From positions 81,431,910-81,495,909 of the forward strand of contig NC_073745.1 in the NCBI RefSeq assembly GCF_029784135.1: a DNA stretch of 64,000 bases, given 5' to 3'. The notes beneath the pieces were generated by a model that saw only the letters and a program-made list of their open reading frames with translations, had not been told where the DNA came from and ran no database searches. A program made the position numbers and the translations under genes. This document shows, piece by piece, positions 2,125-46,640 of the stretch. The number at the start of each line of letters is the position of its first letter. The stretch's first letter is position 1. This DNA is from Toxorhynchites rutilus septentrionalis (taxonomy: Eukaryota; Arthropoda; Insecta; Diptera; Culicidae).

Positions 2125-2400
2125 GACGTAGGACTACATCTAACCGGGAGATATAGGGGGTGAAATGGAAATCTAGGCACTGAACAAGTAAGAAAAAATG
2201 CAAGAGTTGGAACGCTTATAACTCGAGCATTTCTCAATAGATCGCAAAGGTTTTTGCATCAATTGATAGGAAATATATCTACGCATCTATCATAACGAAT
2301 AACATTTCATTTTTCTTGAGATAAATAATTGAATAATAGTGAAATATCAAGCATTGTCCAAATGCACTATGTGCCCATTTTTGATTGGTCCATTTTGTGC
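2125..2400 (-). repeat. Conserved 3' module of the E1 family, copy 1
   Basis: About 270 bp running from the palindrome through TCTAACCGGGAGATATAGGG, AACGCTTATAACTCGAGC and GATAGGAAATATATCTACGC to a CCAATCAAAAATGGGC-type block (as read on the opposite strand). Six more copies lie at 15870-16144, 17611-17880, 19775-20015, 52555-52705 (lacking its end), 54395-54657 and 55121-55375. Confidence 0.75.
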
Positions 2401-2543
2401 TCCTCAAATCGTACCGACCAAAACGGGCAACCAGAGCAGCAGCGAAATAGAATGAAGCACGATTGGAAAGGAAAAAGAACAAAAATGAACGAAACATTGG
2501 TCGCAGTCTCACACATGCGTAATTCTCGAGCCAGCCAGTCTGC

Positions 2544-2580
2544 TTTAAAATCCCCGCTCCGATGCCGTAACGATCATTCT
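2544..2580 (+). promoter_or_regulatory. TATA/initiator-like promoter module P1
   Basis: TTTAAAA at 2544 lies 30 bp upstream of TCATTCT at 2574, the spacing expected for a TATA box and start site. The downstream block (ACAACATCGTTGCTGGACGA, then TGCCTTTCTCAAGGCA) is conserved at 15600-15700, 18590-18700 and 46670-46750. No open coding region follows. It may be the promoter and leader of another captured gene, perhaps histone-related; that is inference. Confidence 0.35.
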
Positions 2581-2755
2581 TTGTGTGGACACCGACTGGA
2601 CAACATCGTTGCTGGACGAGCTGGACGGCGAGGAATCGAGTGCCTTTCTCAAGGCAAGAGGGTGGAGGTGGTAGTGTTGGAGTAGAGTAGAGTAGAGTTT
2701 TCAAAGGGCCTTTCTCAAGGCTAGAGGCGAATGAACTGAAAAACTTTAAAGTCTC

Positions 2756-2794
2756 TATAATACAATACCTTCCTTCCTTCCGTAACGATCATTC
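2756..2794 (+). promoter_or_regulatory. Core promoter of H2A pseudogene 1
   Basis: TATAATA at 2756-2762 is followed at about 30 bp by GATCATTC (TCATTC at 2789-2794), a plausible insect initiator. A leader of about 70 bp then leads to the H2A ATG at 2859 within GCAGCCATG. The same arrangement is kept in the inverted copy at 15420-15515. A promoter upstream of the transcription start argues that the gene was copied as DNA. Confidence 0.5.
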
Positions 2795-2858
2795 TCATTC
2801 AAACCGTACACCACATCAGTTCGCATCACAACACATCAACAAACCAACCCAAGCAGCC

Positions 2859-3236
2859 ATGTCTGGACATGGTAAAGGAGGAAAAGTGAAGGGAAAGGCA
2901 AAACCCGCTCGAACCGTGTCGGTCTGGAGTTCCCCGCAAGGGTAGCTAGGCCGGGCGCGTTAGTACCAGTGCACCAGTCCACCTAGCCGGCGTTATATAG
3001 TTTCGGCCGTCTAAGTGATCCAGTTAGCTGGCAAAGCTGCTCGCGACGATAAGAAAACCCGCATTCGGAACAGAACACATTCGGTTCGGTGGACATCAAG
3101 ACAACAGGCAGTTGCAGCGAGTGGCAAACGCAATCGCAAAACGGCAGCTGGTAGCAGAAGAAAAAAGTTTGTTCTTTATACAATCTGCTTTGGTGGCAGA
3201 ACAATCCAGAACAAGGCGGCATCGAGGGCGTTCGAA
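2859..3236 (+). pseudogene. H2A: Histone H2A pseudogene 1
   Basis: The reading starts MSGHGKGGKVKGKAK, almost the invariant H2A N-terminus. After a deletion that removes the PVGRIHRLL region it continues as degraded KGNYAERVGA and APVYLA coding sequence, then clear H2A (VIQLAGKAARDDKKTRI) from the alpha-3 region. The frame is broken by the deletion and by stops (for example TAG within the KGNYAE codons), and the C-terminal third is not recognisable. H2A is normally about 124 residues. A histone 3' stem-loop and purine-rich downstream element follow at 3298-3334, so this is a decayed replication-dependent gene and not a polyadenylated retrocopy. The same deletion is present in the copy at 15.4 kb, showing common descent. 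Confidence 0.85.
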
Positions 3237-3297
3237 ATGGATTTTTTCAAAACCACGAGTACAAAGTTTTCTAAATTGGAACCATTCCATAAAACAA

Positions 3298-3334
3298 GGC
3301 GCTTGTCAGGGCCATTGAACCTTTCAAAAAAGAG
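3298..3334 (+). promoter_or_regulatory. Histone mRNA 3' stem-loop and downstream element (H2A 1)
   Basis: GGCGCT-TGTC-AGGGCC at 3298-3313 is one mismatch from a perfect six-base stem with a four-base loop (canonical loop TTTC). It is followed after about 11 bases by CAAAAAAGAG at 3325-3334, matching the purine-rich site that pairs with U7 snRNA. The downstream element is removed from mature mRNA, so its presence indicates DNA-level copying. Confidence 0.75.
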
Positions 3335-3531
3335 TTTATGAAAAACAGTTCAATGCTTTCTAAAATAATATCCAAAATAATAATAAAACACAAATTGATT
3401 TTTTCATAAATTGTTTGCCAGGATCTGATGAGTATGTGAATTTGGCAGTTGTTCTGAGCTTATTGATAGTTGGGGACTTTCCTGATTATTCAATTTTCAT
3501 CAATTCTTAAATTGTTTCCAGATTGAAAGTA

Positions 3532-3751
3532 CAGTAATTTACAATTAGTTCGACATTTAGCTAATTGGACGGACATATAATGCGACTTATTTAGTTGGAC
3601 ATTTTTGTAAACATAGAGATCCAAATTATGACCCCACATTGAAAGTCGACACTGTACCACTGTCATCGCAAATTTTCAATTACAGGTTAAAATCGCCTCT
3701 AATGCGACACTGAGTGGTGCTTCGACACGTCGCGTTAAATGTAATTTACTG
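3532..3751. mobile_element. pogo/Tigger-like MITE, copy in E1
   Basis: Termini CAGTAATTTACAATTAG and the inverse of CAGTAAATTACATTTAA face each other and are flanked by TA on both sides (3530-3531, 3752-3753). There is no coding capacity in 220 bp. The same MITE sits at the equivalent place in the inverted copy (14534-14745), so it predates the duplication of the host element. Confidence 0.7.
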
Positions 3752-3908
3752 TACAACATGTCACAAGCAGAATGGGAAGAAATTTCCCAACTGTGAAAGC
3801 TGTGGCGAGTGGCAAACGCAATCGTTAAACAGGAAGCTTTAGCCGAACAAGATGGGGATATCGAGTGATAACCAAACAATAAACTCTTTAGATTAAAGAT
3901 AATTTTGT

Positions 3909-3924
3909 GATCCTGAAAAGGACC
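3909..3924 (-). promoter_or_regulatory. Histone-type stem-loop on the minus strand
   Basis: The minus strand reads GGTCCT-TTTC-AGGATC (five Watson-Crick pairs and one G-T), with CTAAAGAGTTTA downstream resembling the U7 site. It lies about 50 bases past the H2B-like codons that flank the Jockey insertion, where the end of a minus-strand H2B gene would be expected. Confidence 0.55.
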
Positions 3925-4201
3925 CTTTTTAGCCTGCATGTGAATCCAACAAGCGAACAAATCGTAATGAATGTATTTTTTTTTTTTGCAAAAATTCATT
4001 TATATTTCTAATACGTTTTTGGTTAATACAAAGTTCTATACATTTTAATTGGCCAGCTAACGCTTCACATCTTTGTTCATATTAATTTGCATAATAGAAT
4101 GCTAGGTACTGTTTGTATTTACTATATCTAATTTTTTTTTAATGATAAACATTTGTATTTTTTTAATTGTTATAATAAAACTACCTACTTAACCTAAGAC
4201 C

Positions 4202-6877
4202 TTAAACTACTATATACAAATTCCGTACAATTTCATGCACGGAATAGGAACACCTCTCTCCAAATTTTTGTATGACGTTGTCAAACTTTATTTCTAGGGT
4301 ATCCAGACAGGCTCTTTCATGAACCTCCGTTGTTCTCATCCAGGGTGACAAATTCAGTATGATTTTAAGAATCTTGTTTTGAACGCGTTGGAGTTTCAGT
4401 CTGTGTGTCCGGGCACAGCCCTTCCAAACAGGAACCGCATATTCATTGGCAGGATAGAATATCTGTTTATAGACAGCCATCTGATTCTTTAAACAAAGTT
4501 TCGAGTTCCTGCAAATTAAAGGATACAAGAACCGAAGTAAAATGTTACATTTGTTGACGGTTTTATCAACGTGAGATTTGAAAATTAGATGACTGTCTAA
4601 TGTGAGTCCTAAATAGGTGACTTCTTTGGACCATTCAATAAGGGAGTCTCCGAACCGAATTCTCACGTTGTCAGTGGGAACAAGTTTAGGAGACCTTGAA
4701 TGCGGGAAAAGGATAGTCTGGGTCTTCCCCGCATTGGTTACAATTTTCCAACTTGTGTAATATTCTGTTAAAGCATCCAGACCGCACTGTAGTTTGCGAG
4801 TCAGAGCGCTGATTATACGACCCTTAAACATAATCGCGGTGTCATCAGCAAATTGAGACAGTGTTCCATCACCGGGAAGCGGTGGAATGTCTGCAGTGTA
4901 TATGTTATATAAAATGGGCCCAAGGATACTTCCTTGGGGCACACCTGCATTTATGTTGAATTGCTCTGAACACACATTATACAGGGACACCCGGAATGAT
5001 CTATCAGAGAGATAATTTTTAATTATCTTTATCAAATACATCGGAAAATTGTATTGATGTAGCTTGAACACCAGACCATCATGCCATACGTTGTCGAAGG
5101 CCTTTTCAATGTCCAAGAGCGCCATTGCTGTCGTCTTGGATACCGACTTGTTCCGCTGAATGATGTTAACAACTCTAGTGAGTTGATGTATGGTGGATCT
5201 TCCCTTACGGAACCCAAACTGTTCCTCAGGAAAGATACCATGTTCATCTGCGAAAGAAAGAATTCGGGATTGAATACACTTCTCGAAAAGCTTGGAGAGG
5301 GCAGAGAGTAAACTGATGGGTCGGTAACTCTTGGGGACAGAAGGATCTTTTCCCGGTTTCAGGACTGGGATGACTTTTGCTAACTTCCACACAGAAGGGA
5401 AGTAGCTAAGCTCCCAGCATCTATTTAAAATTTTTGCTACAAAAGCAAATGAGCCGTTGCTCAAATGCTTGAGCTCGATGTTAAAAGTGTTGTCAAAACC
5501 GGGGGCCTTCATGTTCTTTGATCCTCTGATAAGACCAATCAGCTCATCAGCAGTGACTTCTGACCCCTCCGGAATAAAACTTTCTGATCGTTCGACCACA
5601 GAGACTCCCTCAATGACGTCATGCTCGTGAGGACTGATGATGTTATGCCCGAGGTTGTGAGACGACACAAACTATTGCCCCAACGCATTCGTTTTTTCTA
5701 TGGGTGTTAATAAAATGTTACCTTCATGTGGACCTCCAGATGAGAAAAGCGGAGGCACAGGCTTTGGTTTCTTTTTTAGAACTTTAGTCAAAGACCAGAA
5801 GGGTTTCGAATGAGGAGGAATTTGACGGAGTTTATCACGAAATTCTCTATTTCGAAGCTCTCGAATTCTATCCTGGATTACCCTAGTCAGATTGGTATAC
5901 GTTATCTTTTTGTTCCGATCGCCAGTACGCTGGTACTGACATCGATACATATTTCGTAAACGAATAATGTGTTTGGTTGTGCTATCTATTTGGAGAGAGA
6001 TACTCACCTGATGTTGTTGAAGCGGAACCGCCCTGTCACGAGCTGTGGTAATCGCTCGTTGAAAGGATTCCAGCGCCAGGTCAATATTCTCCGGAGAATC
6101 TAAAGGCTGATTGGGAGTGATGTTGTTATCAACAACATGTTGGAACTCGCCCCAATTTGCTCGGTGATAGTTTCGTCGGGAATGATTGGCCACCGTATCA
6201 GCAGAGGCACCCAACTTAAGCACCGCCGGGAAGTGGTCGGATGACAGTTCCTCGAAGACGAGTGGATCCTCGGAAATGGCCATATTGGTCAGGAAAATGT
6301 CCAGAATAAAGTGAACTCCCGATCTGGAAATTCTTGTTGGACTGTTCGGCGCCAAGATATTGTAATAACCACTCTCCAAGTCCTCCGCAAGGATGATCCC
6401 GTTCCGGTTTTGCCTTCGGTTACCCCAAATCGCATGCCGAGCATTCAGGTCTCCTGCGATGATGTATTTCGCCCGCCGCCGTGTAAGCTTGGGCAAGTCG
6501 TTCCGTAGCAGTGCGGCTGAACCGTCCCTGATGTTGACTTGCTTAGGACAGTATGCCGCAATGATGATGATTGGCCCAATCGATGTACGAGCCTCGATAC
6601 CGATGGCTTCGATGGTTTTGAGCTGAATGTTCGGTAGCAGGCGGCAGTCGATGTTTCGTCTCACAGCAACGGCCACTCCCCCTTTATCTGCACTGGTTCT
6701 GTCGAGTCTTAGGAGCCGAAACTCCGGAAGAAAGATGTTGATTTCCGGTTTAAGGTGCGTCTCGGTGATGACAGCAACATCGATCTCCTTGTTATTGAGG
6801 AAATCTAGTAGCTCGATATGCTTGCTTCTCAGCGAGCAAGCGTTCCAATTTGCAATGCTGACAGCTTCACGGGACAT
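4202..6877 (-). pseudogene. Jockey-clade ORF2 (endonuclease-reverse transcriptase), one in-frame stop
   Basis: The frame opens at ATG 6877 with an APE-type endonuclease (start SIANWNACSLRS, then GDLNARH and SSDHFP motifs). It runs to a TAG at 5674-5672 and continues in the same frame from 5671 as reverse transcriptase: fingers with SYRPISLLSALSKLFEK, FGFRKGRST, AGVPQGSILGP, and the catalytic FADD at about residue 275 of the downstream part. The total is about 891 codons, the usual Jockey ORF2 length, with no frameshift seen. The stop follows a GQ, where related elements commonly have a second glutamine, so CAG to TAG is a likely cause. ORF2 overlaps the end of ORF1 by 11 bases (ATGTCCCGTGA), as expected for reinitiation after ORF1. 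The protein normally nicks target DNA and reverse-transcribes its own mRNA. Confidence 0.92.
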
Positions 6878-8129
6878 ATTTGCTAATCAGTGAATAAGCC
6901 GCTTGCAGCTGCTCAGGTATAGTTTTGCAGGTACGCATTATTGTGATGACTTCTGACACGAGAGTTAGCATCTCCTGTGTGGTGAATAGCGTACTGTCCG
7001 TGGTTGCACCAGCGGCCACATCAGCGTATGACATACGAGGGGTGGAGGAGTGCCCTTGATTCGGTTGAGTGGCAGCAGCTGCGAGGCGGGGCTGTGCTGA
7101 ACGACGATTGCGGACTGCTTCATCGATTTGATTAGTAGCAGGAGATGTATTGGTGTTACGCTGACTGTTGAGGGGAAGCGGGTGTAAATTTGGGACCTGA
7201 TGGCGTTGCTGGAAAGCTGGATACTCCGCATCCGAGGTAATCGGTGGGGGACGAACGTTACGCTTGCGTCTACCAGGCTGGTTGGATGTTGTCGCCTTTT
7301 GTCGGATGGTGATGAATTCAGCTCGCTTAGGGCAGGATCGGTTGGATGCTTGGTGTTCACCGTCACAATTAGCACACTTCGAATTTTGGTCATCAGCCAG
7401 ACCACAGGACGCCGTGGAATGATTCCCAGCACATTTACCACAGCGAGCCTGCATGTAGCAATTTTTGGTACCGTGTCCGAACCTTTGGCAGTTCGTGCAC
7501 AGTGTGACATCTCGGTGCTGGGGACGATACAGCTCCCATGATATAATGACGCGGAATAAATCACTGATGTTTTTGAGCGAGTTGATGTTGGTGGTGCCCT
7601 TGGCGAAGTGTACTAGGAACAGCTGGTTCCACGTGTTGTTGTTTGGGCGACGAGTCATCGCGAAGACGTTCTCCGGTTTCAAACCAAGATTGGACAGCTC
7701 AGTTTTAACTTCCTCCGGGCCGACAGGCGGTAGTCCACGTAAAACCACCTTCAGAGGTTTCGCCGCTTGCATATCATGTGTGTAAAACTGCACGCCTTCG
7801 GTTTTCAGGTAGGCCCCGACTTGTTGATACTCCTTTAGGCTGGAGCATACGATTTTGATGCCCACGCTACACAGCTTAAATCGCGGCTTGAGATGTTGTT
7901 GGGAAAGCTCAAACTCGAGTTTCACTAAGTCCATCCTAGATGTGAACAGCGGGGGAACGCGCTCCTTTTTGATGACGGCATCGTTGCTTCCAGTGTCCTC
8001 TGGGAGCACCGAATATTGGTTGGTCTGTAGCAGCTGATTTGTTTCTGCATCCGCTGGGGCAGCGGACTTAGTTCGGACCTTTTTCGAAGGGCCGTCCGTG
8101 GCTGAAGTACTGGAACGCTGACGCCCCAT
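6867..8129 (-). CDS. Jockey-clade ORF1, nucleic-acid-binding Gag-like protein
   Basis: The likely start is the ATG at 8129 (MGRQRSSTS), giving about 420 residues. The frame stays open upstream to 8225, but that stretch is F/P-rich leader sequence. The N-terminal part is basic and S/T-rich. The middle holds an RRM-like fold region (LRGLPPVGPEEVKTEL), then three CCHC knuckles in a row beginning CTNCQRFGHGTKNC, CGKCAGNHSTASC and CANCDGEHQASNRSC. The C-terminus is Q/N/P-rich. Gag-like ORF1 proteins package the element RNA into ribonucleoprotein particles. It is uninterrupted and overlaps ORF2 by 11 bases in a different frame. Confidence 0.88.
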   Translation of the reverse strand: MGRQRSSTSATDGPSKKVRTKSAAPADAETNQLLQTNQYSVLPEDTGSNDAVIKKERVPPLFTSRMDLVKLEFELSQQHLKPRFKLCSVGIKIVCSSLKEYQQVGAYLKTEGVQFYTHDMQAAKPLKVVLRGLPPVGPEEVKTELSNLGLKPENVFAMTRRPNNNTWNQLFLVHFAKGTTNINSLKNISDLFRVIISWELYRPQHRDVTLCTNCQRFGHGTKNCYMQARCGKCAGNHSTASCGLADDQNSKCANCDGEHQASNRSCPKRAEFITIRQKATTSNQPGRRKRNVRPPPITSDAEYPAFQQRHQVPNLHPLPLNSQRNTNTSPATNQIDEAVRNRRSAQPRLAAAATQPNQGHSSTPRMSYADVAAGATTDSTLFTTQEMLTLVSEVITIMRTCKTIPEQLQAAYSLISKYVP

Positions 8130-8309
8130 ATTCCTTTTCTTGGCGATATCCACCAAGCACGCCAAAGCGTGTGACGACGATTCCACCTCCAATGCGGGTA
8201 AAAAAAAGAATGGAAAAAAAACCAAAAATTAAAAACTACCTGTCTTTAGCTATAAGCGAGAGTGGAAAAAATCACGTGTTGTCGAAACGAATGACATACA
8301 CAAAATGGG

Positions 8310-8475
8310 AATGAATGTATTTTTTTTGCCATCGCTGCCTTTTAACGCTCATTCGTTCGTCTCGTTGGACTCGCCCCTCTGGCTGAGTCTGCCGATTTGT
8401 CTCTATCCTGTGAGCGTGTACCGCTAAAGTACAAAACGCGCGGATCCCAAAAAAATATCTCATTTACTTTCAAAC
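8310..8475 (-). pseudogene. H2B: Histone H2B pseudogene (C-terminal half)
   Basis: On the minus strand from about 8470, GTAAATGAGATATTTTTTTG resembles codons for VNDIFER. It is followed by degraded sequence reading [13 protein letters not shown] in the place of IAAEASRLAHYNKR, then a CAGACT...GGGGCGAG stretch like QT...PGE and AAAGGCAGCGATGGC-AAA like KAVTK. The last codons (KYTSSK region) coincide with the Jockey target site, and a minus-strand histone stem-loop lies across the insertion at 3909-3924. A head-to-head H2B/H2A pair (H2A starts at about 8555 on the plus strand) is the normal insect histone arrangement. The similarity is by eye, with many substitutions and frame breaks; the N-terminal half is missing. 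Confidence 0.5.
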
Positions 8476-8552
8476 CGTAAACCAGTGTGGTTGTACGGCA
8501 TCGTTTAACATCGCATCGCATCACATCATAATAAGAAAACAAGCTGCAACGT

Positions 8553-8937
8553 GGACGTGTGGACGTAACAAAGGAGGACAAGTTAAGGGAAAGGCAAAGT
8601 CTCACTCGAACCGTGCAGGTCTCCAGTTCCCTGTTGGTCGCATTCACTGATTGCTCCGCAAGGGTAACTAGGCCGAACAGATTGGTGCCGGAGCACCAGT
8701 ATACCTAACAGCAATTATAGAGTTTAGACCGTCGGAGTGCTCGAGTTGGCTTGCAAAGCTGCTCACGACAATCAGAAAACCCGCATCAAGAACAGAGCAG
8801 TTTCGGTTCGGTGCTCATCAAGGCAACAACTAGTTTCAGCGAGTGGCAATCGCAATCGCGACGGCAGCAGGTAGAAGAAAGAAAAAGGTTTGTTTATACA
8901 GACTGCTTTGGTGGCAAAACCAGCCACCGTAAAACAC
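8553..8937 (+). pseudogene. H2A: Histone H2A pseudogene 2
   Basis: The ATG is lost, but the sequence reads as H2A in order: [26 protein letters not shown], a stop, LLRKGN, a stop, AEQIGAGAPVYL, then degraded VMEYLAAEVLELA, NAARDNKKTRI-like codons around 8750, and loss of similarity after that. Unlike copies 1 and 3 it retains the PVGRIH segment, so it is a separate gene copy and not a simple duplicate. It lies head-to-head with the H2B-like remnant and keeps a stem-loop and an apparently intact downstream element. Confidence 0.85.
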
Positions 8938-8974
8938 GGCGCTTTTCAGGGCCATTAAACCATTCAAAGAAGAG
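8938..8974 (+). promoter_or_regulatory. Histone stem-loop and canonical downstream element (H2A 2)
   Basis: GGCGCT-TTTC-AGGGCC at 8938-8953 has the canonical TTTC loop and one stem mismatch. CAAAGAAGAG at 8965-8974 agrees with the consensus U7 snRNA target. Together they show replication-dependent histone 3' processing signals. Confidence 0.8.
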
Positions 8975-9439
8975 TTATTAAAAGTTTTTCACAATACCAA
9001 TGCATTCTAAAGTGACATAATATGACATATAATATAAACCGATTTATTTTGTTTATGCTTGTTCTTGAGCTTATTGGTGGCTGAGGTCTTTCAAATTGAT
9101 CATTCAGTTTTCACAAACCCATACATGGTTTCCGAATTAAAAGTGGCTTCAAATTACAACACATTGTATGCAGGACGGCATTAACGAATTTTCTCGGTGA
9201 CTGACGTTACATCTGCATTGCATAGAGAAATAACTAAGGAGCAACACGATGAGCTATGTATTTCCTGCTGCTCTGTTCTTATTTTAAAGGACTATAATCC
9301 GAAGGTCATTTACTGTTGGTTTTTTAGAACGCTTATAGCTCGTTTATTTTTCGACAGATCGTAGAGTTCATCTCCAAAACCTCAGTTCTTTTTCATTTTT
9401 ATTTACTTTGTTTGCGGAGACTACAAATCTTACAGTTCA

Positions 9440-9600
9440 TTCGTCTCCGAAACCACAGCTTAAGGTACGGTAATGTGCTCAATAGTGAAATATATGCTAG
9501 TGAACGAGCTGATGACCACCTGTGCATTCCCTATCGCAGCCATCATTTTGATTGTACGATATGTGTATACGCCGAAAGATGCCCGGCGTTAAACATTTCA
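9440..9600 (+). pseudogene. Possible histone H3 C-terminal remnant
   Basis: CGGTAATGTGCTC...GTGAAATATAT resembles codons for AVMAL...SEAY, the following GATGACCACCTGTGC resembles EDTNLC, and GTGTATACGCCGAAAGATGC then CCGGCG resembles VTIMPKD...ARR with a nine-base gap before a TAA. A perfect histone stem-loop follows 76 bases later. Each match is short and interrupted, so this could be chance; the position before a canonical stem-loop is the main support. No upstream H3 half was recognised. The stretch 9000-9440 shows nothing else. Confidence 0.35.
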
Positions 9601-9672
9601 TAAGTACAAAGCCTTCAGAAAAAAATCAAGAATCAAGTTTGTAAAAAAAAAACGCAAAAACACAACACCAAA

Positions 9673-9710
9673 GGTTCTTTTCAGAACCCCCAACATGTTC
9701 ATAAAGAGTA
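9673..9710 (+). promoter_or_regulatory. Perfect histone 3' stem-loop
   Basis: GGTTCT-TTTC-AGAACC at 9673-9688 is a perfect six-base stem with the canonical loop. It has CCAAA directly before it and CCCAAC after it, as in true histone mRNAs, and ATAAAGAGTA as a possible U7 site about 13 bases further on. Confidence 0.8.
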
Positions 9711-9814
9711 AACAGTAAACTAATCCGTTTTTCAGGTAGATAGGTAGGAATTCACGTAGGAGAAGATAATAAAACAATATATTTAAAATATATATTTAGC
9801 AAAAGCTGTCCCCT

Positions 9815-9864
9815 TTGTATAGTCCTACGTCACTCCGGTTATGTCACCGACATTACCCACCCGT
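9815..9864 (-). repeat. 5' terminal hairpin of E1
   Basis: On the minus strand: GGGTGGGTAATGTC, then GGTGACATAACC, then GGAGTGACGTAGGACTATAC. Equivalent ends lie at 14262-14310, 17974-18022, 53697-53745 and, partly, 61436-61460. Confidence 0.7.
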
Positions 9865-10536
9865 CTTTTTTTCAGGAGATACAAAAATGCCTTATATTCC
9901 AGAAACTAAAAAAGATAGAAAGATGACGTATTCGACAAAAGTCTATATTTAAATAAGATCTAGAACTTTGTCGAATACACTATGTTACTATCTTTACTTT
10001 TACGATTTACGAAAATTACGATTAGTGGTAATTTTTCCAAATAAAACATGAAGAAGTTGTCGTTAGAAAACTTTTTCCCTGTAAAAGTACCCATCTTCCG
10101 ATGTATAGACGACTTGTTGGAAATTGTAAGGGCTATTCATATAATTTTTTTTGAGAATTTTAAAAAATACGTTTTCGAGAAAAATGAGTTATTTTTTAAA
10201 ATATTTTTTTCCAGCGAGTTTTTATTAAATTTTGGTATTTTTTTTATAAAAATTTGAGCAATTCTACATTTCATCCTCTGACCAGAGTTTTGTAGGTATC
10301 ATAGTTTTTGAGTTAGTTTTTTTTTGTAAAAAAAACAAGAACAATTTTTTACTTTTTCCAAAAAGTAGTCTAATTCTTTTTTGAATGAAATGAAAACTGA
10401 ACCCAGAACACGCAGAAAATGAAAAAACGTCCGGTTGAATTAACGAGGTGTATTCGTGTTGTTGAGGTTTCCATTGTACTTTGAAAACTGTTCGTGTTTT
10501 GATTGTGCAACACGAATAATATGCTAAACGTTTGTA
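9865..10536. repeat. AT-rich repeat related to the 1.6 kb fold-back arm
   Basis: Positions 10060-10190 match 1610-1740 (CCCATCTTCCGATGTATAGA, GACTTGTTGGAAATTGTA). The rest is AT-rich with no recognised gene. Confidence 0.45.
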
Positions 10537-10539
10537 TTA

Positions 10540-11173
10540 AGGTAGTAGCCCGGTGTGACGGGTTCACAAAATCGATTTTTTTACATTTTTCGGAAGAAAA
10601 ACATCTTAAAAATATACTATGCATATACTGCTCTATGCACCAAGCATAGCTGATTAATGTGAGTATAGTTTTTGCATAAAAAATCTGTTGTCAAAACTTT
10701 AAACGCGTTTTCATGTTTTCGAAACTCCGGGGAAGCACTGACTCAAAACCGATTCGACTAAAAATGTTACCCGTTGTTCTAGACACACATATCTAAATAT
10801 GTAACCTTTAAAACATTTAAATTAAAAATTATTTTTATCAAGAAAAAAAAATAGATTCACGCGTCCGCCATTTTGTTTCAGTTTTTTAATGTATATTATA
10901 GGTTAGTTCATTGAAAAAAATTCTGCAGAATACTAATCTTTTTGAATTTTTTATTTCAAATGACTTCGGAAGGCTGTGTGCTTCCCCGAACCAGCTCAAA
11001 TCTTAAAATATTAAACACAAATTTATGTAAAATATACTAAAAGAGTATTTTTTCTATATTTTAAAACACTAATAAAAACATGTAAAAATTTTAAAACCAT
11101 CGCATTTTATTTTCTTGTTAAAAAAATTATGAAAAAACGTCGAAATTTCGGTCGTCACACCGGGCTACTACCT
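10540..11173. mobile_element. 634-bp TIR element, TTA target duplication
   Basis: The ends are inverted copies beginning AGGTAGTAGCCCGGTGTGAC, flanked by TTA at 10537-10539 and 11174-11176. No transposase frame is present. A three-base TTA duplication suggests PIF/Harbinger-type mobilisation, but the terminal sequence was not recognised. Confidence 0.8.
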
Positions 11174-11221
11174 TTAGAAAAAAAAATTAATATCGCTACG
11201 TTTTTTATTAACCCACATGTC

Positions 11222-11328
11222 GGGCCTGATCACGAACATTACTTCACGGTGAAAACGGAATGAAATGCATACAAATCGCATACAATTCTTTTCGTTTTCA
11301 CCGTGAAGTGACGTTCGTGATCAGGCCC
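11222..11328. mobile_element. 107-bp hairpin MITE
   Basis: Two arms of about 36 bases starting GGGCCTGATCACGAACATTA are nearly perfect inverted copies around a spacer of about 35 bases. No clear target-site duplication flanks it. Confidence 0.75.
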
Positions 11329-11339
11329 ATCTTCAACTG

Positions 11340-13140
11340 TTTTTCAACGTAACTCCTAAACATACAGTTTTACCATAATGATGTATTTGGAAGAGTTGTT
11401 GGAAATTATAAACAAATCCATAAAATTTCATGAACATGACGGTATAACACGACAAACATATTAAAAGGGCCTATTGACTATTAAAAAGACACTAAATTAG
11501 AAATATTTTTTAAAATATCTCGAGAATGGTTGCGTTTAGAAGGAGATTGATAATAAACTTTTTTGTTTTAAATCCTATCAGGATTCATAATTCGTGGCTA
11601 AAATTGATTGTTAACATACAAAATTCGAAGTTTCCAAATTGAATAAAAATTCGATATTCCACAAAGTTCGTCAAAAATAGTTGTTGGCCTACCCATTAGG
11701 CCAGCGCGCTCACCTTTCACCTGTATCGACCTTGACAGCCGACAGCATCGATGTAACAGGTTTGTCGTTCTGTCACTGCTGGTGAGTAAAAAAAAACAGA
11801 ACGTAAACATAAGACAAGATAAGCTCCCACATTTTGTACGGTTTCCATTACAAGATATTAAGAACGATCCAAACTGTTTAATACTCGATTCAATCAAGTT
11901 GTGAGCATTCGCGTGTGAGTGGTTGCATTCCACCAAAGTTTGTGGCAAGTTATCTTTCGCGATATAAAGAGGTAAATAGCGAGAAATTTCACAGCAATAC
12001 TGAATTGCTTTTAGGCGCATATTTTTTAACCTTTTTCCTTGTTTAGCTGCGAATCAATTTCTAAACGTAGACACAGTGTGAAATTCGACCTATCAGTTTA
12101 CGCAGTAAATGGTCGCAAATCTGTGTTCTAAAGGTTAAACAGGAATTACTTTTAAGCCCAAACTTAAGGAGAACCGGTGAGAAAATAACGTGGAGTAATT
12201 ATAAACATACATATCTAAACTAAATTACATGCTTCTGTTTAGGATTAAAATCTCTAAAATCACAGTGCCCTAGAACTGAACACGAGAAATATCAAAGGGG
12301 AATTAAACATGAGTAACATAGTTATCATTGAGAAACAAACAACGCATAGGAAGTAAATCGAATGAGGAAAGGCCAATTTTTATCAATGATTTGATCGAAT
12401 GAATGGATTAAGTCCATAGAGAGAAAAAAATTGCCCGGAGGACAAAGAATGAATTATCACCATGAAATTATTATTACCTTGAATGAAATATCATTATTAT
12501 TGTAAATATGAATTATATACTGTTATTATCAACAATGTTGCACCTATCATTATTGTTGTGCTTCATTAGGTTCATGTGAATTGTAGTAAATTTACTGTTA
12601 CTATTATTATTATCATTATTCGTATTATGATTATTATTGTCATCGATCTTTATCATTAATACCAACATAACTCTGTAATTCAACAAGAAAATTATATTCT
12701 CCATTTGACTAAACGGATCAAGTGTATTTAATTCATTTCCGCGGCGGAGAATTATAATTTTGGAATCCCGTTGGAATATATCCAACAATAGTTTTACCAC
12801 CTTGTACTAATTTTTGGAACTTTCTACTGACTTCTATTTTATACGAATCTTTTTTTTATAAAAATTAAAAAAATACATATTTAAGATATCGCAAATTGAA
12901 ATGTTTCTCGTAAATAAAAAAAGAGTAGTTTTTTTTCTCAGTGTATTTTTTTCACCGCTACTCTATAACTCTTTCTAACACACTATTTCGGTACGACTCA
13001 TAGTTTTTGCGATATAAATTATCAAAGTTTTTTTCTTACAAAATCGATATTTTTCAAAAGCTACAATTGAGTCAAAAAATTCCCAATTTCTATGGGAAAC
13101 TCATATTTCCTCCAACCCAAACGGAATACAAACTTTCATC
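11340..13140 (-). repeat. AT-rich repeat F, copy 1, split by an insertion
   Basis: The segments 11345-11682 and 12787-13135 are the two halves, in reverse, of the repeat seen at 24480-25130 (shared strings include TATGAGTCGTACCGAAATAG, AGAAAGAGTTATAGAG and CATGAACATGACGGTATAAC on one strand or the other). The 1.1 kb between them is a separate insertion. Confidence 0.7.
11683..12786. mobile_element. 1.1-kb insertion in repeat F
   Basis: AATAGTT is found at both edges (11676-11682 and 12787-12793), and the uninterrupted site is visible at about 24827 (ACTAATTTTGACG) and 25436 (ACTATTTTTGTCG). The ends begin GTTGG on one side and, inverted, GTTGGATAT on the other. It contains no recognised gene; 12480-12680 is ATT-rich simple sequence. 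A duplication of 7-8 bases would fit a hAT-type element, but this is not proven. Confidence 0.6.
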
Positions 13141-14260
13141 CGAATCATTGCCGATTTCATTTGGAATTGCTCTTCTGTTGTCAATTTCCAGGCGTCAGCT
13201 GTCGAATCCGAGCAAATCAAAAACAGAACGTTCGTGAGATGAATCTCAGAGAGCAAGTGCCACATTACTTTCCTAGGTATTCAAACATTCCATTCACGAA
13301 AAGGTCTGTCTTTCTAAGAAAGATGGTGAAACAAGGGTAGCGAAACACGAGCGTGTAAAATACTCTGTTCGCACTTCTTGCGGTATCTCATATAGCTCCC
13401 GATCAGCATCAGTTGATTTCGGAACTCCTAAACAAGCCTCGAATCATATCTCAACGTAATTGCATGTATATGGAATGGATTTTTTTCCCCGAAGAGCAAA
13501 TTTTCTTTTCGTCAGTTCACTCAGTACATGACGGAATACTGCGGATCATATCGATGATGTTTATCTTGACTTCCAAGGAAGCGGGAAAACACGCCGGAAG
13601 CTCTTCATGTTTTCCACGTTTCTGTTCGCCGCAGACACAAACTCGGCTCTGTGCTGACAGGAGGATTCAAATCGTTGCGATCTCGCTGAGTGTCACTTCC
13701 TGAGATTCGATGTTTTTTTTTTTTGCTCGTTCTTCGGATAAATTAACTTTTATTTTTTGTTTCCCCTGGAGACTGGCATCGTGACGAAACCGTGCTTTTT
13801 CCCTGATGCAGGGGGGGTGTTTCGTGTTCTCTTTTTCTACTCGTTATGAATAAGGAAGAAACACGGAAATCTGATAACGACGTTACCGTCAGTTGCTTTC
13901 TATCGGAATAATCCGACGAAGGCATGCTGAGCGGTAGCATCATCACGATTGCCCAGTTCTTGCCCGGATTTGCACGGATTTTGTTTCGAGTGAATTGAAA
14001 AAACGGGTTGCTTTCCGTTGAGTCATCCCCGCAAAATGCCGGTAGCATTGGGTATAAAAAGTCGAATGTTCGCCAAACCATTTTTAAACTCTGTTCACTC
14101 GATTGAGGAACATTTTAAGCCATTTAGGTGGGTGGAATCTATAAACAAAATTGACCCTTAAACATACCCCGGAATGTTCCAGATGGTGGTCACCTCTACT
14201 GTCTATACATAATTCTGTTATCGTATGATGGAATGAGGTGAAATTTCTCTATATAAAAGA
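13141..14260. other. Non-repetitive stretch, nothing recognised
   Basis: The base composition is more balanced than in its surroundings and no transposon similarity was seen. Several open frames of about 75-110 codons overlap on both strands without recognisable domains. A TATAAAAA box lies near its right end. It could be host unique sequence or cargo. Confidence 0.3.
14053..14095 (+). promoter_or_regulatory. TATA box, possible core promoter
   Basis: TATAAAAA at 14053-14060 lies in a GC-richer context (CATTGGGTATAAAAAGTCG), with a start site expected near 14083-14095 (TCTGTTCACTC). No open reading frame of note follows before the E1-family element starts at 14261. Confidence 0.3.
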
Positions 14261-14533
14261 CGGGTGGGTTATGTCGGGGACATAACCGGAGTGACGTAGG
14301 ACTATACAAAGGGGACAGCTTTTGTTAAATATATATTTTAAATATATTGTTTTATTTTCTTCTCCTACGTGAATACCTACCTATCTACCTGAAAAATGGA
14401 TTAGTTTACTGTTTAATCACTCGATATTCCCATCTTGTTCGGTTAAACCTTCCTGTTTAGCTTTTGCGTTTGCCACTCGCCACAGCTTTAACAGTTGGGA
14501 AATTTCTTCCCATCCAGCTTGTGACATGTTGTT

Positions 14534-14745
14534 CAGTAAATTACATTTAATGCGACGTGCCGGAGAAACACTCAGTGTCGTATTTGAGGCAATTGAAACC
14601 TGTAATTGAACATTTCCGATGACAGTGGTACAGTGTCGACTTTCAATGTGGGGTCATAATTTGGACCCCGAACTCTATGTTTACAAAAATGTCGCATTAC
14701 AGATCCATCCAATTAGCTCAATGTCGAGCTAAATATAAATTACTG
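14534..14745. mobile_element. pogo/Tigger-like MITE, copy in the 14-16 kb element
   Basis: Inverted equivalent of the MITE at 3532-3751, with CAGTAAATTACATTTAA at one end and TAAATTACTG at the other. Confidence 0.65.
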
Positions 14746-14942
14746 TACTTTCAATCTAGAAGCAATTTAAGAATTGGTGAAAATTGAATAATCGGGAAAG
14801 TCCCCAACCATCAATAAGCTCAGAACAACTGCCAAATTCACATACTCATCATATCCTGGCAAACAAATTATGAAAAAATCAATTTGTGTTTTATTATTAT
14901 TTTGGATATTGTTTTAGAAAGCATTGAACTGTATTTCGTAAA

Positions 14943-14979
14943 CTCTTTTTTGAAAGGTTTAATGGCCCTGATAAGCGCC
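14943..14979 (-). promoter_or_regulatory. Histone stem-loop and downstream element (H2A 3)
   Basis: On the minus strand: GGCGCT-TATC-AGGGCC (14979-14964) followed by CAAAAAAGAG (14952-14943). TATC is an accepted variant of the loop, and one stem pair is mismatched. Confidence 0.7.
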
Positions 14980-14989
14980 GTGTTTTTTG

Positions 14990-15414
14990 GAATGGTTCCA
15001 ATTTAGAAAACTTAGTACTCGTGGTTTTGAAAAAAACCATTTCGAACGCCCTCGATGCCGCCTTGTTCTGGTTTTGCCACCAAAGCAGATTGTATAAAGA
15101 ACAAACTTTTTTCTTCTGCTACCTGATGCCGTTTTGCGATTGCGTTTGCCACTCGCCACTCGCTGCAACTGCCTGTTGTGTTGTCTTGATGTCCACCGAA
15201 CCGAATGTGGTCTGTTCTGAATGCGGGTTTTCTTATCGTCGCGAGCAGCTTTTCCACTTCGGCGGCCGAAACTATATAACGCCGGCTAGGTGGACTGATT
15301 CACTGGTACTAACGCGCTCGGCCTAGCTACCCTTGCGTGGAACTCCAGACTAACACGGTTCGGGCGGGATTTTTCCTTTCCCTTCACTTTTCCTCCTTTG
15401 CCATATCCAACCAT
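14990..15414 (-). pseudogene. H2A: Histone H2A pseudogene 3
   Basis: It starts at the ATG at 15414 (within GCAGCCATGG) and reads MVGYGKGGKVKGK, then the same GLQF/RKG deletion as copy 1, a TAG, degraded AERVGA and VYLA codons, and KAARDDKKT-like sequence. The C-terminal third is replaced by the same unrecognised sequence found after copy 1, including an added segment of about 90 bp absent from copy 2. It shares the promoter (15435-15515) and 3' signals with copy 1. It is not translatable as a histone. Confidence 0.82.
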
Positions 15415-15720
15415 GGCTGCTTGTGTTGGTTTGTTGATGTGATGTCATGCGAAACGATGTGGTGTACGGTTCAGATGAGAATGATCGTTACGGTGGTGGT
15501 GGTGGTGGTTTTGTATTATAGAGACTTTAAACTTTTTAGTTCATTCGTCTCTAGCCTTGAGAAAGGCCCTTAAAACTCTACTCTAACTCCTTCATTACAC
15601 CTCCGCCCCCATTGCCTTGAGAAAGGCACTCGATCCCTAGCCATCCAGCTCGTCCAGCAACGATGTTGTCCAGTCGGTGTCCACACAAAGAATGATCGCT
15701 ACGGCAGCGGAGCGGGGATT
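15415..15720 (-). promoter_or_regulatory. Promoter region of H2A 3 with paired hairpins
   Basis: Reverse copy of 2540-2858: the TATAATA promoter near 15510, a (GGT)n stretch at 15493-15511, the hairpins AGCCTTGAGAAAGGC at 15554 and TGCCTTGAGAAAGGCA at 15613, and module P1 at 15620-15720. Confidence 0.5.
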
Positions 15721-16144
15721 TTTAAGCTGACTGGCTGGCTCGAGAATTACTCATGTGTGAGACTGCGACCAATGTTTCGTTCATATTTTTTCTTTTTCCT
15801 TTCCAATCGTGCTTCATTGTATTTCGCTGCTGCTCTGGTTGACCGTTTTGGTCGGTACGATTTGAGGAGCACAAAATGGACCAATCAAAAATGGGCACAT
15901 AGTGCATTTGGACAATGCTTGATATTTCACAATTATTCAATTATTTATCTCAAGAAAAATGAAATGTTATTCGTTATGATAGATGCGTAGATATGTTTCC
16001 TATCAATTGATGCAAAAACCTTTGCGATCTATTGAGAAATGCTCGAGTTATAAGCGTTCCAAATCTTGCATTTTTTCCTACTTGTTCAGTGCCTAGATTT
16101 TCATTTCACCCCCTATATCTTCCGGTTAGACGTAGTCCTACGTC

Positions 16145-16799
16145 AAAATTGTGACATCATATACTGCATTTCCTTTTTCGTGTATCATAACACCATGAAA
16201 TAGGGCAACTGGAGGATGCCTAGAGATGATGTTAATATTTGCGCTCTTCCTTGTTCGGACAACTTTGGCCCGTTGCACTCTGCAAAGTCCTGTCCTGTCC
16301 TTGTACTGCTGGGTGTGTTTCTGTCTGATATACAACACCGCTGCGCTGGGGCCATTGTGGTTTGCTAGTGGAGCATAAGAGAATTAAAATTTCGGCTATT
16401 CCACGGGACCGTTCGGTGAATATGCAAAAGCGCCCCTCGTTTGCGATACCGTAAATTGTCATTTATTTTGCACTACATAATCCAGCGAGATGAGAATGTC
16501 TGAGATATAATCTCACTATACGTTTCCGAGTTTGTTTATATGAGAGCACTCACGTGGGAATAGATACACGCCTTCCTGAAATGCTCCGGAAATGGAGTTC
16601 AGTTGAAAAATGTTATTAAATGTTTCTTTCCTATCACTAATGTTAGCATTTGCTAGCACACAGAAAGACAACCAAAGATGTGAGATACGTATCATGACTT
16701 TAGTGGGGACATTGGTTTTGGGGTTTGAAAATTCCATCATGGAACACGATATTTACACCAACCTGTAGAGATGGTTGGCTTACTAGTCGAAGTTTTTTT
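16145..16799. other. No recognised feature
   Basis: Moderately GC-rich. Open frames of 65-76 codons on the minus strand have no recognisable domain. No repeat copy was found elsewhere in the window. Confidence 0.3.
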
Positions 16800-17485
16800 G
16801 ACGTAGGATTACGTCTTTCGGGAACGTATTGGGGTACAAATTGAAAATCGAAAATCGAGCAGATCGTGAAAATTGTCCCATTTCCAATTTCTCAGTCATT
16901 TAATGATGAATTGATGAGATTATTGCGTCAGTCAATTTCGACACTCCATAACAATTTTTTACATTGAATCAAATAATATATGTCATGACTAACTATCGAA
17001 CAATTGAAAAATCTCAACCCCTATCCTAACGGAAATGCCCACCTCTGATTGGTCGAAATTGACAATACATGCGGCGGCTCGTGTACTTACAATTATTGGT
17101 CAGTTATTTCCTGATGGATTTACGAGATATTTGCATCAATCGATCTGAGCACTCCATAACAATTCATCACAATGGATAAAATAATATATCATATGAAAAT
17201 AGCTATCAAACAATCAAAAAATCTCCAAACGAAATACCTCGTTCTGATTGGTCGAAATTGAAGATACGGAGAAATCGGCATTGCAAATACATCAAAGTAA
17301 AGGGAACTTTTGTTCCTACCGAAGTGTGTTCCCTAACAAAGACATTAAAACCACGCTGCCTGGGGGAAATCGGCATTGCAAACACATGAACGAAGGGGGA
17401 GCTTTTGTTTTCTCCGACATATATTTCCTAACAGAGATTTAAAATTCAAGGTACTTGAGGGAAATCAGCATATAAATAACAGTTT
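16800..17485 (-). mobile_element. Fragment of an E1-related subfamily
   Basis: It begins with the palindrome GACGTAGGATTACGTC (16800-16815) after a T run and continues TTTCGGGAACGTATTGGGG. Two similar blocks with CTGATTGGTCGAAATTGA lie at about 17044 and 17247. From 17265 to 17480 it contains two inverted units of the 95-bp tandem repeat (AAATCGGCATTGCAAA, TTTCCTAACA). Confidence 0.5.
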
Positions 17486-17610
17486 AACAAACAGCGATAG
17501 TTTAACAAACGACGCGCACAAATATATAGTGCTCATTGTAACTAGCGTGGATATTGCTGATTGCATACGTGCTGGCGAATAAGTTGGGAGCGATGAACGA
17601 GTGTTTTTTT

Positions 17611-17972
17611 GACGTAGGACTACGTCTAACCGGAAGATATAGGGGGTGAAATGAAAATGTAGGCACTGAACAAGTAGGAAAAAATGCAAGATTTGGAACG
17701 CTTATAACTCGAGCATTTCTCGATAGATCGCAAAGGTTTTTGCATCAATTGATAGGAAATATATCTACGCATCTATCATAACCAATTACATTTTATTTTT
17801 CTTGAGATAAATAATTGAATAATTGTGAAATATCAAGCATTGTCCAAATGCACTATGTGCTCATTTTTGATTGGTCCATTTTGTGCTCCTCAAATCGTAC
17901 CGACCAAAACGGGCAACCAGAGCAGCAGCGAAATACAATGAAGCACGATTGGAAAGAAAAAAGAAAAACAGG
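17611..17972 (-). mobile_element. Truncated E1-family 3' end
   Basis: It carries a perfect palindrome GACGTAGGACTACGTC at 17611-17626 after seven T, then the conserved 3' module as far as GGGCAACCAGAGCAGCAGCG and CACGATTGGAAAG. It stops abruptly at about 17972, where the 5' hairpin of another element begins. Confidence 0.65.
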
Positions 17973-17973
17973 A

Positions 17974-20015
17974 AGTGGGTTATATCTATGATATAACCAC
18001 AAGGGTGACGTAGGACTATCGTTGATTTAGAGATCATTTGTTTGAAGTTGAATCTAAATCCATTCTGAATGAATGAATAAATGAATATTTGGGGGACTTC
18101 GAAAACGAGAGCGTTACGTTGGAGGCACAAGGTTTTGTGCATCCAATATAGGATACGAAAAACCTTGTTCTGAAGAATAATCTTCAGAAGCTAACCTGCT
18201 AACTGTACTTGATTGACAAATCACAAACCCAAATGTATTATATGGATATTTTATGGATAGAAAACATTAAAATAAACTCTTTCGCTTGAATGAAATTTTC
18301 AATTCCAAGGGGAACTGGCAGATTATTTTCCAGCAACGATTAGATATTTCCACATTTTCCTCGATACTGGAAGCCCACCAGTGGTTAATACTAACTCGAT
18401 AACCACCTGTTAATAGTACTTGATTGAAAAATATTTGGTCACAGTGTTACATGGATAGAAAACATTCAAATAAACTCTTTCACATGAATGTATTTTTAAA
18501 TTCCCAGAGGAACTGGCAGATTATTTTCCAGCAATGATTAGATCTTTCCGGAACTTTCTCGATGCTGAATGGCATCCTAACGGAAAGAGTTCTGCGCGTG
18601 TATGTGTCGATCCTTCGCCGTCCATCTCCTCCAGCACGTTAGGCAACGATGTTGTCTTGTCGATGTCCTCACGAAAAATGAATGTGTCTCACCACCAGAA
18701 TATTGCTTAAGTATGCTTTTTGTGTGTGATTGAATCGAGAGAAGGTGTGGTTTACGATGGCAATTTGGAAGGCAAACTAGAGGGGAATGAAATCTCTGAG
18801 CTCGGAACTTTCGGCGACTGAGCAATAATCGATTGCGGGCGCATACAATATTGGATACGGAAATATCCTACTGATGGGGAAGAATAATCTTCAGAAGCTA
18901 TCCTGTTAATTGCGATTGATTGAAAAATCACAAAACCAAATATATTTGGTCACAGTGTTACATGGATAGAAAACATTCAAGTAAACTCTTTCACATGAAT
19001 GTATTTTTAAATTCCCAGAGGAACTGGCAGATTATTTTCAGTAACGATTAGATCTTTCCGGAACTTTCTCGATGCTGAATGACATCCAAACGGAAAGAAT
19101 TCCGCGCGTGTATGTGTGTGTAGCGATGTCTTACCGGGGAGCCGTTTGTGGCATCACTCTCCTCCTGATGGATTCCCTTCTGGCCTAGGGTGCACAAACA
19201 GGCTCTTGGTGACACCGTTCATCCACGCTTTCATGATAAACGAAGAGCTTCACCACAACAGCGACAACATGCTCCAATCGCTGTTCAATTAGAACTGAGT
19301 GGATTTCCGAGCGGCGCTCGCTTATATACCGATTGGTGATTTTAAAAGCCTGTTTTGAAGGCAATTTTAAGACTATTGGAACAAATTTCCGGATCAAAAA
19401 GTAACAAGTATATAACATAGACATTTTATCTTTCGAATGAAGTGTTTATCATACCATTTCGTTCAGTTGTTTAGGAGCTATTAACGCTCAAAATCTCGGT
19501 CTCCGGCGTAACGCTTTCGTTTTCGAAACTTTGATTTTACACCCCGGTATAGAAATGAAAGACGTAGTCCTACGTCAAAATACCCCCGGCTTACATGAAC
19601 TTGCAATGCCAATTTCCCAACGCTCCATGGATTTGAACTCTGTGTTAGGGAAACATATTTCAGTCGGAACAACAATACCCCCGACTTTCATGTATTTGCA
19701 ATGCCGATTTCCCCAAGGCTGCTTGGTTATGATGGCTGTGTTGGGGAAGCCGTAAATTGGGCCAATCAAAACGAGGGCGTTTAGATAACGCTTAACATTT
19801 TACAGTTATTCAATTGGTTAATTAAATGAAAAATAACATTTTATTAATTACAATAGACGCGTAGAAAATTCCCTATCAATTGATGCAAACATCTTTCCGA
19901 ACTAGTAAGGAATGTTCGAGTTATAAGCATTCGGAATCTTTCATTTTCTCCTGCATGTTCTGTGTTTAGGTTTTCATTTTACCCCCCATATACTCTGGTT
20001 AGACGTAGTCCCACG
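17974..20015 (+). mobile_element. E1-family element with repeat and promoter cargo
   Basis: The 5' end has GTGGGTTATATC...GATATAACC and GGGTGACGTAGGACTA (17974-18020). Cargo: three copies of a segment containing AGAAAACATT...AAACTCTTTC and GGAACTGGCAGATTATTTTC (18250, 18450 and 18965), a P1-like module (18590-18700, minus), a TATA/initiator module (minus, 19292-19328) and two 95-bp units (19577-19755). The 3' module at 19775-20015 ends in GACGTAGTCCCACG, cut short by the next repeat. Several insertions may be nested, including a subfamily end at 19561-19576. Confidence 0.5.
19292..19328 (-). promoter_or_regulatory. TATA/initiator pair on the minus strand
   Basis: TATATAAG (19328-19321) in CGGTATATAAGCGAGCGCC lies about 29 bases upstream of CACTCAGTTC, an arthropod-type TCAGT initiator. 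The following minus-strand sequence resembles neither a transposase nor a clear histone gene. A weak resemblance to H3 codons (ARKSTGG, KAPR) near 19145-19180 is too short to call. Confidence 0.4.
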
Positions 20016-46228: not shown

Positions 46229-46640
46229 GACGTAGAACTACGTCTTTCATTAAGGGTGCCAAATCAGAAAACAAGTTACGTTTTTATGGAATAAAGTTAA
46301 CGTTAATAACTAATTTTGCCGCAACCGGATACATACCAAACGAATCGGAAATTCCCTAAGATTCGTTTGATATGCTACACATTACAGTCCCATAGTTTGT
46401 ATATGGTTTGAATTGATGAAAATTGGAAGCATTCCCATTTCCTCATACATTTGTTCTGTCCGTTTGTGTGCTTTCCCGAACAGAGCTGTCAATAACGAGC
46501 AACTTATCGACAAGCAACGAAGGGGAAAAGTCTCCATAAACAAGGGAAAAGAAGAAGAAGAACGAGGGGGAAATCGTAAGAGTAAAGTCTCCGTGAACAA
46601 AGGAAAAAGAAGAAGAACGAAGGGGAATATTTGCCTAGAG

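Follow-up and report, generated by a model that had tools for sequence, protein, structure and literature searches.

Probable Helentrons and non-autonomous derivatives carrying captured histone fragments in the genome of the mosquito Toxorhynchites rutilus septentrionalis

A stretch of 64,000 nucleotides from Toxorhynchites rutilus septentrionalis (assembly GCF_029784135.1, contig NC_073745.1; C2:81431910-81495909), referred to as a whole as the window, contains members of a repeat family in which the same two ends surround different interiors, histone sequence among them. These repeats are very probably Helentrons (relatives of Helitrons that bear an endonuclease and are described as rolling-circle elements) and, for the most part, their non-autonomous derivatives (HINEs), which insert into runs of T and in which a piece of histone sequence seems to have been captured and multiplied. 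A first interpretation made from the letters of the window, the sequence-only reading, had proposed a Helentron-like or otherwise unclassified non-autonomous carrier family. The Helentron-like part of that proposal is supported by insertion into T-runs, asymmetric subterminal repeats, a 3' hairpin, an empty site and long partner copies with Rep, PIF1 and endonuclease-like domains. The family is very abundant and is tied to the Rep-bearing Helentrons through common 3' ends.

Ends and interiors of the elements

The 5' end is a 16-bp palindrome, GACGTAG-NN-CTACGTC, directly preceded by a T-run in nine of the ten window copies and followed by a module of ~260 bp with 76-97% identity among six copies (A, B, C, F, G and K in the list below). 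At the 3' end TAGTCCTACGTC is followed by 4-8 bases, a hairpin, a further 6-10 bases and a T-run. The 3' subterminal inverted repeat (subTIR) is a 12-bp inverted copy of the first 12 bases of the element; in A, B, D, F and H it begins 46-50 and stops 34-38 bases before the 3' T-run, which is at or slightly below the distance published for Helentrons and HINEs (38-60 bp). Hairpins were found at 14267, 17978 and 53701 and, on the other strand, adjoining 9820. Their stems are 9-10 bp in A, B, D and F (folding z -2.2 to -4.6 against shuffles), while the hairpin of element H is weaker (z -1.5).

With up to two mismatches the end motif GACGTAGGACTA has 24 matches in the window against 2.09 expected, and with up to three mismatches GACGTAGNNCTACGTC has 12 against 0.70. 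The earlier observation of two constant ends around differing interiors is thereby borne out, the motifs lying where it had placed them. Its polarity was the wrong way round: the hairpin had been taken as the 5' and the module as the 3' end, and when copies are ordered by sequence the palindromic ~260-bp module is 5' and the hairpin 3'. Between the common ends lie H2A fragments (A and B), duplicated non-coding blocks (D) or 95-bp tandem repeats (F), the last being the repeats already noticed at 53.7-54.7 kb. The supposed single unit at 18-20 kb does contain repeats and duplicated blocks, but several elements lie nested in one another at 17.6-20.0 kb. A second end variant, GACGTAGAACTACGTC, likewise bounds differing interiors at 46229-48032 (H, a TATA/leader module) and 52031-52969 (I, an F-like piece).

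Searches of the 902.6-Mb assembly (514 contigs) found 32,321 exact 5'-type palindromes, against two for the reversed control, and 7,260 exact subfamily-1 3' ends. Five patterns gave 11, 0, 1, 0 and 0 stretches in a viral contig collection, and 7 prokaryotic stretches came from a genome contig collection; these are taken as chance matches because blastn at E<=0.001 aligned none of the 19 loci from the viral and prokaryotic collections with the window.

The elements of the window and the parts of element A are as follows.

2125..9865, + strand: element A of subfamily 1; the 5' palindrome is at 2125, H2A is present as two fragments, 9820-9857 holds the 3' subTIR and hairpin, and the end reads CACCCGTC followed by TTTTTTT
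2858..3208, + strand: first H2A fragment of A (copy 1), interrupted by stops and frameshifts
3966..8309, - strand: non-long-terminal-repeat (non-LTR) retrotransposon (RVT_1), ~4.3 kb, inserted within A and outside the Helentron proper, with its own target duplication AATGAATGTATTTTTTT at 3966 and 8310
8561..8832, + strand: H2A fragment, copy 2 of A; tblastn 76% over 59 aa, E=1.4e-25, two in-frame stops
9668..9712, + strand: histone 3' untranslated region stem-loop; Rfam RF00032, 35.0 bits, core at 9673, 147 bases before the 3' subTIR of A
14259..16144, - strand: element B, subfamily 1, with both ends and one weakly recognisable H2A fragment (E=0.004); 94% identity to A without its retrotransposon over 1,863 aligned columns
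16800..17604, + strand: element E of the subfamily 3 type, its 5' part, in which 17271-17471 consists of 95-bp tandem repeats
17611..17968, + strand: element C of subfamily 1, its 5' part, interrupted where the 3' end of D begins; 95% identity to A
17969..19576, - strand: element D, subfamily 2; duplicated blocks, hairpin 17978-17998, end CACTTCCTG followed by TTTTT
19577..20015, - strand: 5' part of element G, an F-like HINE with tandem repeats and a truncated 5' end; the 5' end of D lies within a T-run of the G repeats
46229..48032, + strand: element H, second end variant GACGTAGAACTACGTC; TATA-like and leader module
52031..52969, - strand: element I; both ends match those of H (74% across 258 bases, 69% across 88), and the interior contains an F-like HINE piece
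53695..54657, - strand: element F, a complete 963-bp HINE containing 95-bp tandem repeats; the empty site of L038a is its 3' part
55121..55358, + strand: element K, 5' module only
61387..61455, + strand: truncated 3' end with subTIR and first hairpin arm

The surroundings of some of these elements are themselves repetitive. The flanks of A (1233-2114 and 9868-10331) are related AT-rich repeats, partly inverted, as if A had entered one such repeat. Repeats related to a 143-bp tandem array at 43279-43788 adjoin the truncated 5' end of G (20028-20474). The 5' ends of F and K (54657 and 55121) stand head to head with 464 bases between them; nesting or composite elements are possible.

Termini and insertion sites

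Exact termini and empty sites, which the sequence-only reading had suggested defining, were sought in a sample of 32 sequences (351 kb) consisting of the window, sites selected by the palindrome and three regions selected by Helitron_like_N. Forty-eight 5' ends were oriented from sequence alone; at least four Ts stand before 43 of them, a context found at 1.8% of background positions. At the 3' end, with the hairpin accepted within 2-3 mismatches, all eight sampled ends of subfamily 1 and all 14 of subfamily 2 stop at one fixed base before at least four Ts, and five of nine of the subfamily-3 type do the same. Copies in the first two subfamilies therefore do not end at random positions, the outcome that had been named as refuting the proposal.

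A paralogous empty site is provided by L038a, a copy that sits within an F-like HINE at the point where F itself is empty (joined flanks of 240 bases, 82.5% identity). There are five Ts at the empty site in F and five on each side of the filled copy, with no further duplication seen, which supports insertion into a T-run; Helentrons and HINEs are characterised by T-rich insertion sites with no target duplication. Element D has one-sided support on both flanks, its 3' end meeting the T-run of C and its 5' end a T-run in the tandem repeat of G.

Long copies with a Rep gene

A profile search of the genome with PF14214 (Helitron_like_N), in which 150 of 1,313 candidates were scored, gave 132 matches at E<=0.001; none of 14 control genomes matched. 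Two of the long loci are linked to the window elements by their 3' ends. L049 has an open reading frame (ORF) of 1,674 aa with DUF6570, Helitron_like_N, PIF1 and a C-terminal Exo_endo_phos domain, all above the Pfam cut-off (Exo_endo_phos 31.0 bits, cut-off 24.5), and its last 229 bases match the end of A (window 9647-9875) at 96% identity, reaching CACCCGTC followed by TTTTTTT. L050 has an ORF of 1,564 aa with the same domains, Helitron_like_N and PIF1 above the cut-off and Exo_endo_phos at 24.2 bits, and it terminates in the subfamily-2 end CACTTCCTG followed by TTTTTT. The two proteins are 67% identical over 1,542 aligned residues. Both contain the Rep motif FKRIEFQHRGSPHAH, which agrees with the distinction of Helentrons from Helitrons in section 7 of PMC4067079, where Helentrons have F/Y-x-R near Rep motif 2 and an S placed between G and P. 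The sequence-only reading had named an autonomous partner with these ends as support for the classification, and an autonomous Helentron has Rep, PIF1 helicase and an AP-type endonuclease at the C-terminus. Copies bearing Rep, PIF1 and endonuclease-like domains do exist with the subfamily-1 (L049) and subfamily-2 (L050) 3' ends, the sharing covering the 3' end only. At complete 5' ends of these two elements, which would lie upstream of C2:6596700 and C2:320567800, a T-run would precede GACGTAGGACTACGTC together with TCTAACCGG in subfamily 1 or TCTTTCATTTC in subfamily 2.

The 3 kb upstream of L049 (L052) opens with H2A cargo 96-98% identical to that of L042, and no end palindrome was found within four mismatches between this cargo and the Rep gene. 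Because H2A cargo lies upstream of the Rep gene of L049, the window copies look like deletion derivatives, and A, B and the remaining carriers of H2A are most simply read as an L049-type element that would have lost its Rep region. ORFs inside the window elements were listed, and the sole one scanned against Pfam (46847-47242) matched no family, a result that does not exclude Rep pieces in the window.

A third locus, L051 (C1:176382000-176391900), has a 1,169-aa Rep/helicase ORF matching Helitron_like_N and PIF1 with the Rep motif GMPHLH; no endonuclease match and no matching 3' end were found in it. L051 looks like an ordinary Helitron coexisting with the Helentrons. An H-type 5' end lies near it on the opposite strand.

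Histone cargo

Histone genes had been read at 2.1-9.9 and 14.3-16.1 kb. H2A sequence and histone-type 3' stem-loops are indeed present, but the H2A as fragments with stops and not as genes, and a full-length H2A ORF is absent from A and B, which have stops and frameshifts. The identity as H2A comes from the tblastn match of 59 aa listed above and from H2A chains in the PDB (2pyo_C, E=1e-25), a Pfam scan of the window fragment having given no family at E<=0.001. For H2B, H3 and H4, tblastn matches in the window were no better than E=0.26. A candidate H3 end at 9180-9670 was tried by codon-profile alignment and scored 23.4 against 40 shuffles (mean 18.7, standard deviation 2.5, maximum 25.0); the alignment stopped at 9329 rather than at the stem-loop, and the candidate was dropped.

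Among the sampled subfamily-1 5' modules with at least 95% identity, H2A follows in seven of eight (six at E<=0.001, and B at E=0.004), the eighth being element C, which is cut after ~360 bases. Outside the window, L049 not counted, five of five subfamily-1 elements have H2A behind the same 5' end. L029 has an additional H2B fragment, and a 4.86-kb subfamily-2 element, L038b, has three H3 fragments; the other eight sampled two-ended subfamily-2 elements gave no core-histone match. All 35 core-histone matches at E<=0.001 in the 32 sequences lie within these elements, apart from two in L052 upstream of the Rep gene of L049.

In the genome search for H2A 150 of 20,767 candidates were scored, and the listed rows were counted by category. 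Sixty-four have the full length and no stop; 59 of these are 100% identical to the query, and many of the 59 lie in evenly spaced clusters; intact H2A clusters are situated elsewhere in the genome. The remaining 86 include 82 with stops, mostly one TGA and one TAG, and in the five copies read both stops are at identical places. Since this pattern and these positions are common to the copies, a single broken H2A copy that would later have been multiplied explains them best. A large-subunit ribosomal RNA fragment (Rfam 409 bits) was also seen at 2197-2933 of L024, ~1.2 kb from a Helentron.

Histone 3' stem-loop and leader module

One histone-type stem-loop of the window is above the Rfam gathering score of RF00032 (34 bits), the others being weaker. 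An intact loop precedes the subTIR by 147 bases in each of A, L024, L042 and L049 (35.0, 41.8, 41.0 and 40.5 bits); a search for the stem-loop 16-mer pattern gave nothing in B, L029, L037 and L039. In L049 the loop lies at 7939-7983, 471 bases past the Rep stop; L050 has a loop 287 bases past its stop (22.9 bits, E 0.021). Ahead of the L050 stem-loop there is a small spliced reading frame, which was not used because its frame differs from that of the Rep ORF. In the genome search with RF00032, 66 of the 75 scored matches were above the cut-off, which is no census because just 75 of 199,592 candidates were scored. The loop together with the subfamily-1 3' subTIR occurs in 4,780 exact combinations (reversed control 0), a set that overlaps the 7,260 exact 3' ends without being nested in it. 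Dispersed histone-type 3' signals in their thousands, and many H2A fragments, could mislead the annotation of histone genes.

A leader-like module with CATTC or CATTT is present in copies of three end subfamilies (2570-2680, 15586-15735, 46672-46773 and 18607-18681), with a TATA-like box before it in some. In A a 15-bp direct repeat (2566 and 2781) flanks the module.

Mechanism and alternative explanations

If these repeats are Helentrons, then by analogy with the family the Rep/PIF1-helicase/endonuclease protein of long copies such as L049 and L050 would nick at the ends, make a copy of one strand and place it between Ts. A piece of a histone cluster, with H2A, promoter-side sequence and histone 3' stem-loops, would have entered an ancestor of subfamily 1. 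The H2A coding copy would have broken early and then multiplied as passenger DNA, often in tandem inside elements, and the Rep region would, judging by the copies read, have been lost from most of them. Several points weigh against this account. Most sampled sites were selected for holding the palindrome; five of the 48 5' ends have no four Ts before them, and four of the nine subfamily-3-type 3' ends, that of H among them, have another tail. There is one two-sided empty site, L038a/F, and the comparison there is imperfect because F is without 26 bases immediately right of the junction (gaps of 7 and 19). The ends that L049 and L050 have in common with the family are 3' ends, the stretches read (L052, L049 and L050) holding no 5' end, and the joining of the L052 cargo and the L049 Rep gene into one element is read from order, strand and the absence of a boundary. 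L050 may not be intact, since its N-terminal part falls in a different frame, giving two ORFs, and the endonuclease matches score slightly under the Pfam cut-offs. No transposition was observed.

Canonical Helitrons, which have a Rep/helicase without endonuclease and no subTIRs and insert between A and T, are apparently represented in this genome by L051. The family described here has subterminal inverted repeats and T-run insertion instead, and the long copies with matching 3' ends bear an endonuclease-like domain and the Helentron Rep motif, and it is most improbable that these repeats are Helitrons of that kind. Cut-and-paste DNA transposons and miniature inverted-repeat transposable elements have matching terminal repeats at both ends and a fixed target site duplication. 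Palindromic inverted repeats near both ends, and a DDE_3 fragment in the window at 25435-25947, would suit such elements, mobilised by a DDE transposase; the ends are however asymmetric, the 3' end having a hairpin, nothing beyond Ts is duplicated at the empty site and copies with Rep/helicase have the same 3' ends, which leaves this explanation hardly any weight. It is equally hard to credit that the histone stretches are leftovers of a resident histone cluster into which unrelated repeats landed by chance. The cargo does hold H2A fragments and several histone-type stem-loops, most of them under the Rfam gathering score, but the intact clusters are elsewhere, H2A recurs in all five subfamily-1 elements outside the window and the dispersed copies have their stops in common.

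A different question is whether the histone parts were retained for function, so that the Helentron gene would be expressed like a replication-dependent histone gene through the 3' stem-loop and perhaps the leader. In favour of this are the RF00032 loops after the stops of both L049 and L050, whose 3' regions otherwise align solely over the last ~120 bases, and a leader that recurs across three end subfamilies, some copies having a TATA-like box in front of it. The L050 loop is however under the family threshold, both loops are hundreds of bases past the stop and AATAAA occurs before as well as after the L049 loop. A neighbouring control 16-mer is moreover kept equally well in the same setting (5,054 against 4,780 for the stem-loop 16-mer), so that no special constraint on the loop is apparent in the copies. 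Retention for function is judged unlikely, as is use of the loop by the autonomous gene, and a role of the histone sequences as mere passengers is favoured by these copy-level data. Slightly less probable again is the more specific proposal that the Rep/helicase/endonuclease mRNA ends at the captured stem-loop and that rolling-circle transposition is in this way coupled to S phase. If it were true, such coupling would have left its trace in the recurrent association with histones, namely H4 and H15 in Culex and H2A, H2B and H3 in the present family. The choice between S-phase expression and a passenger role is now open to concrete test.

Relation to known elements

Capture of histones by a mosquito Helentron is already known from Helentron-Cq-32A and HINE-Cq-32A of Culex quinquefasciatus (Thomas et al. 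2014, PMC4067079; this and the other comparisons refer to the parts of the papers available). The Culex elements resemble those described here in their palindromic subTIRs, 3' stem-loop and insertion into T-runs with a variable number of Ts, as well as in HINEs with tandem repeats and in broken captured histone fragments that were multiplied with the element. They differ in carrying fragments of H4 and H15 in eight copies, whereas in the present family the histone is H2A, joined in sampled relatives by H2B and H3, exact subfamily-1 3' ends number 7,260 and a histone stem-loop stands beside the 3' end, a comparison made by description and not by sequence identity. The present family adds other histones, a high copy number and linked Rep-bearing copies, and histone capture by mosquito Helentrons extends past the Culex case. 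In the literature searched, PMC4067079 and PMC7492417 alone seemed relevant. No literature on a histone stem-loop together with a transposable element was found, most subscription papers lying outside the search.

According to the same source (PMC4067079) the subTIRs of Helentrons and HINEs are 12-15 bp, often palindromic, and lie near the 5' end and ~38-60 bp from the 3' end. HINE-Mo of the mite Metaseiulus occidentalis is similar in its palindromic 12-15 bp subTIRs and in that its non-autonomous copies are deletion derivatives of Rep/helicase/endonuclease elements; unlike here, no captured histones are reported for the mite in the available part (PMC4067079). DINE-1/INE-1 of Drosophila belongs to the same superfamily, with subTIRs, a 3' stem-loop and a TT preference, but its subTIRs are not themselves palindromic whereas the 5' subTIR here is (PMC4067079). 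Cg_HINE of the Pacific oyster is, like F and E, a non-autonomous element of the Helentron class with satellite-like central tandem repeats between element-specific flanks, and differs in that no gene cargo is mentioned in the available part of its description (PMC7492417).

Other features of the window

Two further features were noted. A perfect AGTAAT hexamer array of 50 copies with 100% matches occupies 38291-38591. An I-type retrotransposon at 29456-34709 has an open 1,231-aa ORF with endonuclease, reverse transcriptase and RNase H, and further long frames alongside; the nearest proteins with a named organism are from Aedes albopictus (70%, 64% of the query) and Topomyia yanbarensis (64%, 57%), which suggests a culicine-like mosquito as host.

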